NCBI RefSeq assembly: GCF_000703045.1
Contig: NZ_JNLJ01000005.1
Location: forward strand, 287,023-351,022
Length of the DNA: 64,000 bases
Reading direction: 5' to 3'
From: Persephonella sp. IF05-L8
GTDB lineage: Bacteria; Aquificota; Aquificia; Aquificales; Hydrogenothermaceae
Under the pieces are notes generated by a model. That model saw only the letters and a program-made list of their open reading frames with translations, ran no database searches and had not been told where the DNA came from. Shown here one piece after another: positions 33,935-36,695 of this stretch. The position numbers and the translations under genes were made by a program. How positions within the stretch are numbered: the first letter of the stretch is position 1; every line of letters starts with the position of its first letter.

Positions 33935-33961
33935 TTGTATTTCTTAATCTGATATAAGGTA

Positions 33962-33989
33962 TTGATTTTTTTCATTTTTTGCATATAAT
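33962..33989 (+). promoter_or_regulatory. Strong putative promoter of an orphan small RNA
   Basis: TTGATT (33962-33967) and a perfect TATAAT (33984-33989) are 16 bases apart. It lies 28 bases after the RluB-like stop and no plus-strand protein gene follows before mutS (minus), so it should drive a non-coding transcript. Confidence 0.7.
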
Positions 33990-33995
33990 ACAAAT

Positions 33996-34096
33996 CCCCT
34001 CAGGTTAGTGGGACACGCAGCACCTGAAGCTGTGTTTCCTCTCATGGCCCTCCTAACCTCCTATTTCTGGCGGTATCAAAAGATACCGCCCTTTTT
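33996..34096 (+). ncRNA. Candidate new small RNA of about 100 nt
   Basis: Between a promoter (33962-33989) and a terminator (34069-34096) lies a compact structured sequence. GGTTAG (34003-34008) pairs with CTAACC (34053-34058). Inside it GGACACGCAGC (34011-34021 region) pairs with GCTGTGTTTCC (34029-34039) with one mismatch. The apical loop sequence ACCTGA (34022-34027) is complementary to TCAGGT (34000-34005), so a pseudoknot that competes with the outer stem is possible. I find no conserved GGAAG/AGCAG core of SRP RNA and no feature of 6S, tmRNA or RNase P RNA. Function is unknown. Confidence 0.65.
34069..34096 (+). terminator. Terminator of the small RNA
   Basis: A perfect GGCGGTATC/GATACCGCC stem with an AAAA loop is followed by CTTTTT. 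The T run is on the plus side only, so it serves plus-strand transcription. Confidence 0.88.
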
Positions 34097-36695
34097 AATT
34101 TTTAAACTGTTTTATCTTTGTTTTTAGCTGGTTTAAAAATACTATTGCATCTATAGGTGTCATGGTTGCTATATCAATACTTTCAATCTCTTTTATTAGT
34201 TGCTGGATGTGGTCTGGAGTTTGCTCCTTTTCTTCCAACTCCCTGAATAACGGCAGATACTCCTCTTTTTTCTGGGATAGATTTATTATAGTCTCATCTA
34301 TTTTTTTCTCCTGCTCTTCCTCAAGATGATACAGGATTTCATAAGCCCTTTTAATTATTTCTTCCTTTATTCCTGCAAGTTTTGCCACATGAACACCATA
34401 ACTTTTGTTTGTGAAGCCTTCTTTTACTTTGAATAAAAACTTTATATCTCCTTTTTGCTCTAAGATTTCCATGTGGTAGTTTTTGACCCCTTTTATCTCC
34501 TCTTCTAATTTGGTTAGTTCATGGTAATGGGTAGCAAATAATGTTTTTGCTTTTATTTTCTGGCTTATATATTCTGAGATAGCCCATGCAATTGAAAGAC
34601 CGTCATAGGTGCTGGTTCCCCTTCCAACTTCATCAAGAACAACAAAGCTTTTTGAGGTTATATTATTCAGGATATTTGCCATCTCAAGCATCTCAACCAT
34701 AAATGTTGAAAGTCCCTTTGACAGTACATCTCCAGAGCCTATTCTGGTAAATATTCCATCAACAATAGAGATTTTTGCCTTTTTGGCAGGGACAAATGAG
34801 CCTGCCTGTGCCAGAATTAGTATTATTGCTGATTGTCTTATAAATGTGCTTTTACCGGCCATATTGGGACCTGTGATTATATGGAAAAAGGAGTTTTTGT
34901 CCATCTTTAAATCATTTGGAACAAAATCATTCACAAACTCTTTTATTACAGGATGATATCCCTCCTGAATAAATATCCCGTAATCTTCTGTTATTTCTGG
35001 CTTTGTCCAGCCTTTTTCCACAGATATTGTGGCAAGGGATTGTATAGCATCTATAAAACCAACATTCTGGGCTGTTTTTGCAATCTTTTCTGCGTTTTGG
35101 GAAACCTCTTCCCTGATTTGCATAAATATTTCATACTCAAGGGCTTTTATCTTTTCATCTGCAGACAGGATTTTTTCCTCAAATCTCTGGAGTTTTTCTG
35201 TTGTGAACCTTTCTGCATTTGAAAGGGTCTGTCTTCTCCTAAAGTATGAGGGGACAAATTTGAGATTTGGCTTTGTTACTTCTATATAATAGCCCATTAC
35301 CTTGTTATAGCCTATTTTAAGGCTCTGGATACCTGTTTCTTCTCTAAGCTCTTCCTGATACTCTTTTACCCATTGATTTCCTTTTTCCTTGATTTCCTTA
35401 AGCTCATCAAGGTCTGAATTAACTCCCTTTTTGATTAATCCCCCTTCTTTCAGATGTATTGGTGGATTATCCTCAAGATATTTTTCCAGCTTATCTATTA
35501 AATAAGAGAAATCCTGTATATTTTCAAATAACTGTTTCCCATATTCAGACTTTATTTGATTTTGTAAGGATTTAAGCTCCTTTATATGCTTTAAAGATGT
35601 TCTGAGGGCAACCATATCCCGGGGGGTCATTGTGTTTGAGGATATTTTTGAGATAAGCCTTTCCACATCAAAAATTTCATTAAGTATTTTCCTTATTTTT
35701 TCCCTGAGGTTTGAATTTCCAAAGAGCTCAGAGACAAATTCCAGTCTTTGTTGTATCAGATTTTTGTTTTTTAATGGATGTAGCAGGAAAAACTTTAATT
35801 TTCTTCTTCCCATTCCTGTAAGGGTTCTATCTATAACCCGCAATAGTGGAACATTTCCTTCATTTGCTGTTGTAAGTTCAAGATGTTTCTGGGCTGAGTA
35901 ATCAAGTCTTATATAAATATCTCCCTGATACTGTTTTAAAGGATTTATAAAAGGTAAGAATTGCTTCTGGGTAATCTTGACATACTCAAGAACTGCGGCA
36001 GCTGATAAAAGGGCAGTTATATCCTTGTCTGAAAATCCAAATGATGAATAATGGCTCGTTTTAAAAAAGTCTAAAAGGTTTTTTAGCTTTTCTTGGGAGA
36101 AAAAGTCTTGGGGAACATGGGATATGAATATATTTCTGAAATTTTCCTTTATCTCCGGTATTTCTGTGTTTTCAGGAAGTAGTATCTCTTTTGGCTGGAA
36201 TTTTCCCAGAAATGCTATTAAGCCATCAAGGTCTGTTGTTGTAGCAAAAAACTCACCTGTGGAAAGGTTTATGTATGAAACCCCGTATTTATTTCCTTCT
36301 AAGAGTATTGAGACAAGAGCAGATTTCAGCTTTTCGTTTTCAAAGTATGTCCCCGGGGTTATTACTCTAATTACGTCCCTTTTGACTATTCCTTTGGCTT
36401 TTGAGGCATCTTCAAGCTGTTCACATATTGCGACTTTATGACCCTTCGCAACAAGTCGGCTAATATAACTGTCTGCAGCATGATAGGGAATTCCACACAT
36501 TGGGATATCTGCAGATTTTCCAACCTTTTTTCTGGTAAGTGCTATATTTAAATCTCTGGCTCCAATATATGCATCTTCATAAAACATCTCATAAAAGTCG
36601 CCTAATCTATATAAAACAAGGGCATCAGGATACTCATTTTTAATTCTGTGATACTGGGCAAGCATAGGGGTGATATTTTCTTTCTTTTCTGACAT
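34095..36695 (-). CDS. mutS: DNA mismatch repair protein MutS
   Basis: This 866-aa protein is MutS1. The mismatch-binding Phe-x-Glu lies in YRLGDFYEMFYEDA near residue 30. The connector, core/lever and clamp domains follow, with the DNA-contacting KIGYNKVMGYYIEVTK segment near 470. The ATPase has Walker A GPNMAGKSTFIRQ, FVVLDEVGRGTSTYDGLSIAWA, and ATHYHELTKLEE. Length is normal. The protein forms a dimer that scans DNA for mismatches and recruits MutL. Its 3' end meets the small-RNA terminator. Confidence 0.98.
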   Translation of the reverse strand: MSEKKENITPMLAQYHRIKNEYPDALVLYRLGDFYEMFYEDAYIGARDLNIALTRKKVGKSADIPMCGIPYHAADSYISRLVAKGHKVAICEQLEDASKAKGIVKRDVIRVITPGTYFENEKLKSALVSILLEGNKYGVSYINLSTGEFFATTTDLDGLIAFLGKFQPKEILLPENTEIPEIKENFRNIFISHVPQDFFSQEKLKNLLDFFKTSHYSSFGFSDKDITALLSAAAVLEYVKITQKQFLPFINPLKQYQGDIYIRLDYSAQKHLELTTANEGNVPLLRVIDRTLTGMGRRKLKFFLLHPLKNKNLIQQRLEFVSELFGNSNLREKIRKILNEIFDVERLISKISSNTMTPRDMVALRTSLKHIKELKSLQNQIKSEYGKQLFENIQDFSYLIDKLEKYLEDNPPIHLKEGGLIKKGVNSDLDELKEIKEKGNQWVKEYQEELREETGIQSLKIGYNKVMGYYIEVTKPNLKFVPSYFRRRQTLSNAERFTTEKLQRFEEKILSADEKIKALEYEIFMQIREEVSQNAEKIAKTAQNVGFIDAIQSLATISVEKGWTKPEITEDYGIFIQEGYHPVIKEFVNDFVPNDLKMDKNSFFHIITGPNMAGKSTFIRQSAIILILAQAGSFVPAKKAKISIVDGIFTRIGSGDVLSKGLSTFMVEMLEMANILNNITSKSFVVLDEVGRGTSTYDGLSIAWAISEYISQKIKAKTLFATHYHELTKLEEEIKGVKNYHMEILEQKGDIKFLFKVKEGFTNKSYGVHVAKLAGIKEEIIKRAYEILYHLEEEQEKKIDETIINLSQKKEEYLPLFRELEEKEQTPDHIQQLIKEIESIDIATMTPIDAIVFLNQLKTKIKQFKN

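Follow-up and report, generated by a model that had tools for sequence, protein, structure and literature searches.

The window analysed here, a stretch of 64,000 nucleotides from Persephonella sp. IF05-L8, contains a stand-alone gene for a small RNA (sRNA) of about 100 nt, which is served by its own promoter and intrinsic terminator (table 1). We are highly confident that this gene is real and previously undescribed. What relatives share is a linear 42-nt block rather than a fold, and the antisense of this block reads as a translation start site: two Shine–Dalgarno (SD) sequences, an AUG, and five codons. Based on this arrangement, the sRNA is most likely a trans-acting antisense RNA, an identity to which we give good confidence.

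The sRNA Gene and Its Distribution

The gene is flanked by an RsuA/RluB-family pseudouridine synthase gene on the plus strand and by mutS on the minus strand, as the sequence-only reading had described, and the promoter (TTGATT-N16-TATAAT) and terminator of that reading are both present. Counts of such elements were not above chance: 10 promoter-like sites were found versus 6.5 ± 2.6 in shuffled sequences, and 1 terminator versus 1.5 ± 1.3. Both elements are nevertheless raised above chance because they are conserved across three genera. In the aligned relatives, the terminator is followed by a U-tail of U5–7. The mutS stop codon and the T-run of the sRNA share 2 nt; in the window's genus, transcripts reading through mutS would be perfectly antisense to the sRNA and might act as its sponge (window 34091–34097).

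Table 1. Features of the sRNA locus in the window (unless another genome is named) and Hfq genes
Feature	Position	Strand	Remarks
sRNA gene, ~100 nt	33996..34096	+	start inferred from –10 box, end from T-run
Sigma-70-type promoter of the sRNA gene, TTGATT-N16-TATAAT	33962..33989	+	conserved at 16 loci, three genera
sRNA promoter of relatives			TTGAAATTTTT-N-TTGCATATAAT; TTGATTTTTTT as alternative to TTGAAATTTTT
Variable 5' half	34000..34028	+	stem strands GGTTAG and GGACACGCAGC specific to window's genus (g1); TCAGGT/ACCTGA complement
Outer stem GGTTAG/CTAACC	34003..34008/34053..34058	+	six pairs
Inner stem GGACACGCAGC/GCTGTGTTTCC	34011..34021/34029..34039	+	one C.U mismatch
Loop complement TCAGGT/ACCTGA	34000..34005/34022..34027	+	
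Near-invariant, predicted target-binding block GCTGTGTTTCCTCTCATGGCCCTCCTAACCTCCTATTTCTGG	34029..34070	+	2 substitutions in 16 sequences
Start-codon block	34029..34045	+	complement of AUG and about five codons of predicted targets
Two tandem anti-SD motifs, CCCTCCT and CCTCCT	34048..34062	+	
Intrinsic terminator of the sRNA	34069..34096	+	only helix with compensatory changes; stem of 9 pairs at 34069–34090, then TTTTT at 34092–34096
mutS	34095..36695	–	
39-aa frame, GTG start	34008..34127	+	mechanical
33-aa frame, ATG start	33944..34045	–	mechanical
Hfq genes	G000:C1:251285, 310364; G014:C2:488325, 1345544; G009		L286–L291

The sRNA was detected in 16 of the 41 genomes of its family, namely nearly all of the window's genus and two further genera, all hot-vent bacteria of the Persephonella kind. 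Phylum-wide, 16 of 136 Aquificota genomes carry it, all three genera lie in this one family, and no sequence match was found in the Aquificota genomes beyond it (136 genomes searched). A covariance model built on the block and the terminator recovered the same genomes and gave only weak matches elsewhere in the family; homologs in the other genera were discarded, since these matches had E-values above 0.05 and those inspected were coding or SD sequence.

In the window's genus, the sRNA adjoins mutS in the loci read. In G014, which we take to be probably P. marina EX-H1, it again follows the pseudouridine synthase gene, separated from it by a small gene, and the convergent gene is a different one. 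In the third genus it has been relocated beside an NAD-dependent epimerase-like gene. These changed genomic places indicate that the sRNA is a unit of its own, not the untranslated region of a neighbor, and the conservation in relatives that had been proposed as a check was borne out, promoter, block, and terminator being kept in all three genera. In G009 and G014, a 101-aa gene separates the sRNA from the pseudouridine synthase gene (L007 1183–1488 and L015 1065–1370), whereas the window's genome is without it.

Known RNA classes and coding functions were weighed together. The Rfam search gave no match at gathering thresholds and only chance-level matches at E-values up to 10, in line with the previous failure to recognize a known class; we found no published description of this RNA. 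A housekeeping RNA (6S or SRP) or cis riboswitch too diverged for Rfam would suit the size and the abundance-type promoter, but the best Rfam match (E-value 0.07) falls on a low-complexity part of the other strand, the sRNA matches neither RF00013 nor RF00169, and the 6S and SRP RNAs lie above cut-off elsewhere in the same genome, so that both identities were rejected. The cis riboswitch or leader had already been dismissed from the sequence on the ground that no plus-strand gene follows; this holds, and the downstream gene is also convergent in the loci examined in other genera. This alternative is thus barely credible and already largely refuted. Phage origin was likewise discarded, as the core has no match in viral contigs. 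The locus had also been said to hold no open frame. Two frames do exist mechanically (39 and 33 aa), and neither is conserved as a protein, there being no conserved frame on either strand in the alignment of relatives. A small protein or leader peptide would find some support on the minus strand, where the block offers a good ribosome-binding site and an ATG and resembles SD-SD-AUG-MRGNTA (SD-SD-ATG AGA GGA AAC ACA GC). Past MRGNTA, however, the frames cross indels and have a different length and sequence in each lineage, and the conserved promoter and terminator belong to the plus strand. On that strand, no SD precedes the frame and both block substitutions would be non-synonymous. We regard a coding function as very improbable and the RNA as non-coding.

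Conserved Block and Variable 5' Half

It was the minus-strand reading of the block that gave the clue to an RNA antisense to a translation start: its reverse complement reads AGGAGG..AGGAGGGCC-AUG-AGAGGAAACACAGC. The part facing the start codon is as invariant as the anti-SD part.

The six-base outer stem and the eleven-base inner stem with one mismatch, on which the sequence-only reading had centered, are both present, and so are the complementary TCAGGT and ACCTGA said to make two folds compete. However, their proposed role as the key feature of the RNA is contradicted by the comparison with relatives. Between promoter and block, the 5' half has been swapped for unrelated sequence across genera: it is short in G012 and G015, whereas G028 and G014 carry long unrelated hairpins. 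The outer stem is invariant within the window's genus, and G012 and G015 lack it. The inner stem shows changes on one side only, or lost pairs, within that genus, and the TCAGGT/ACCTGA pairing shows no covariation in the alignment of the genus. Both-sided changes were found in the terminator stem only, which is where the suggested covariation check succeeded. The fold has a z-score of –4.89 with the terminator and –2.45 without it, so that the remainder is only moderately stable.

Structure or switching was therefore rejected as the conserved feature. Since the 5' half is replaced and the non-terminator helices lack covariation, the C/U-rich block is conserved as sequence, which speaks for base-pairing with mRNA and not for a structured or ligand-sensing RNA. 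The fold predicted for the window's RNA allows the 5' half to pair with CTAACC in the block, so that part of the block is occupied, which counts against the pairing reading.

Predicted Targets

Pattern searches spanned whole genomes, and the target ranking used samples of 800 kb plus the window in G000 (about 47%) and 800 kb in G014 (about 41%). A mismatch search with CATGAGAGGAAACACAGC led to one and the same start codon in the three genera (TTTTAGGAGGTAATCTC ATGGGAGAAAACACGGCC). The product of this gene begins MGENTAVKW and is a membrane-anchored diheme cytochrome c; the gene is followed by one for a cbb3-type subunit-I-like protein. A test in start-codon register placed the cytochrome c gene first among the 676 ATG starts sampled in G000 and among the 616 sampled in G014, with 13 of 14 positions pairable (sample mean 6.8, sd 1.8). 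Predicted duplex energies at this start were –33.7 to –38.7 kcal/mol in each sRNA-bearing genome read, and the sampled G000 start regions had a mean of –19.5 kcal/mol (sd 5.3). By energy, it ranked second of 842 start regions in G000 and seventh of 766 in G014, and was first of 346 ortholog pairs by summed energy; when accessibility was charged, it was first in the G000 sample.

The seed is complementary to mRNA starts elsewhere in the genome, with the limit that the energy-only shuffle control was weak: when only the anti-SD part was left intact, 8 of 84 shuffles of the remainder gave an equal or better ortholog pair, and 2 of 82 whole-block shuffles did so. Genera in which the sRNA was not detected have an equally complementary cytochrome c start, implying that its sequence is kept for other reasons, and no target-side coevolution was seen at this gene. 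On this complementarity, the cytochrome c–oxidase mRNA is the leading candidate target, with the chances for and against it about evenly balanced.

One further site, in G012, emerged from an unbiased BLAST search with the block (E-value 6.4e-4); it is located exactly on the start codon of a TonB-dependent receptor gene (AAAAGGAGGAAGGAGGGCTAACATGAGAGGAAAAACAGCC) whose product has the plug domain. The predicted duplex amounts to –53.8 kcal/mol in G012, far beyond the above G000 distribution, and to –40.3 kcal/mol at the ortholog in G007. The site is limited to these two genomes. Two explanations would suggest themselves for this match: the receptor mRNA may be a second target, or the block of the sRNA may have originated from this sequence by inversion. 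The starts of NiFe hydrogenase, ferritin, peroxiredoxin, and Nramp genes ranked high in one genome.

Proposed Mechanism and Related sRNAs

Considering that the block mirrors the translation start of the cytochrome gene, the sRNA probably represses translation of that gene. Transcribed from its own promoter and ended by its terminator, it would pair in trans with the SD, start codon, and first codons of the diheme cytochrome c and cbb3-like oxidase mRNA, and, in lineages that have the TonB-dependent receptor, with the start of that mRNA as well. Ribosomes would be kept off the SD and AUG, and translation of the cytochrome c and oxidase operon would be repressed. Hfq probably assists the pairing: two Hfq genes were found in each of the three genomes examined (G000, G009, and G014), and the terminator has the U-tail mentioned above. 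We are less sure that the 5' half tunes accessibility of the block, with part of which it can pair in the window's genus. Judged from the predicted duplexes, a base-pairing sRNA that blocks initiation on the cytochrome c/oxidase and, where present, the TonB-receptor mRNA is a reasonably probable account.

Other readings of the same block deserve consideration. The sRNA might be a general anti-SD regulator whose real targets are other mRNAs reached through its two CCUCCU motifs, the cytochrome c match being fortuitous. Such sRNAs, for example IsrR and FsrA, usually have C-rich anti-SD motifs as seeds (PMC9410917), SD-rich starts generally pair well with the block (mean –19.5 kcal/mol), and the shuffle control was not significant. 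A pure anti-SD sRNA, however, needs no start-codon block, and here that block varies no more than the anti-SD part does; in addition, genome-wide SD-SD sites showed no excess over a reversed-pattern control, and the hydrogenase and ferritin candidates are not conserved. We consider this reading unlikely. More improbable still is that the block is a protein binding site with incidental mRNA complementarity. Extreme sequence conservation without conserved structure would be expected of such a site, but the occurrence of SD, AUG, and codons of real gene starts in register would be left unexplained.

RyhB-class sRNAs and sRNAs that repress outer membrane proteins in enterobacteria block initiation of respiratory or TonB-receptor mRNAs with the help of Hfq. 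The sRNA described here would work alike; there is no homology, and the interaction predicted for it is longer and also takes in the coding start. IsrR of Staphylococcus and FsrA of Bacillus use C-rich stretches to pair with SD regions of mRNAs for respiratory and iron enzymes (PMC9410917). They share with our sRNA the intergenic location, the intrinsic terminator, and the C-rich SD-targeting stretches, whereas they have no sequence or positional relation to it and the predicted contact here is one long linear block spanning SD and start codon. NrrF of Neisseria meningitidis represses petABC through pairing of a fully conserved segment in the 5' region of that mRNA (PMC5586341). Repression of a cytochrome complex mRNA by NrrF resembles what is predicted here for cytochrome c, but NrrF is Fur-controlled and targets cytochrome bc1 rather than a predicted diheme cytochrome c with a cbb3-like oxidase subunit. 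No sequence relation of our sRNA to IsrR, FsrA, or NrrF was found.

Within the phylum, dRNA-seq showed many small RNAs, and the A. aeolicus candidates n1–n99, which were reported without targets, are the only published Aquificota sRNAs that we found (PMC4227106). As the 136 genomes gave no match outside the family, our sRNA is not among n1–n99. Hfq of A. aeolicus has been crystallized with RNA (PMC5379935). We tentatively propose, with slightly less than even confidence, that the sRNA represents a new family confined to Persephonella-type Aquificota, its block being predicted to cover the SD and start of the cytochrome c/cbb3-like mRNA. If true, one of the deepest-branching phyla of bacteria would have an sRNA that regulates aerobic respiration and for which a target is predicted. 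The sRNA and the cytochrome c mRNA are a concrete predicted pair, with the duplex predicted exactly, in thermophiles with two Hfq genes; this makes it testable whether RyhB/NrrF-type sRNA control of respiration also operates in this deep branch.

With respect to iron, no Fur box was seen by eye in the aligned sRNA promoters, and iron control is thus not indicated. A regulon of the iron-sparing type is not claimed, because the complementarity of the hydrogenase and ferritin starts is not maintained in the other genomes in which these genes were traced; the cytochrome c start is conserved as a predicted target. In G014, the start of a ferritin-like gene (L201:6429–6854; AAAGGAGAGGCCATGAG) gave –37 to –39.5 kcal/mol against the block, a complementarity that other genomes do not retain. 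In a second family of TonB receptors, an imperfect palindrome, GCAAAATATTTGCATTAGCA, is conserved directly ahead of the ribosome-binding site, about 20–45 nt upstream of the start codon (L275–L285), and looks like the operator of a metal regulator.
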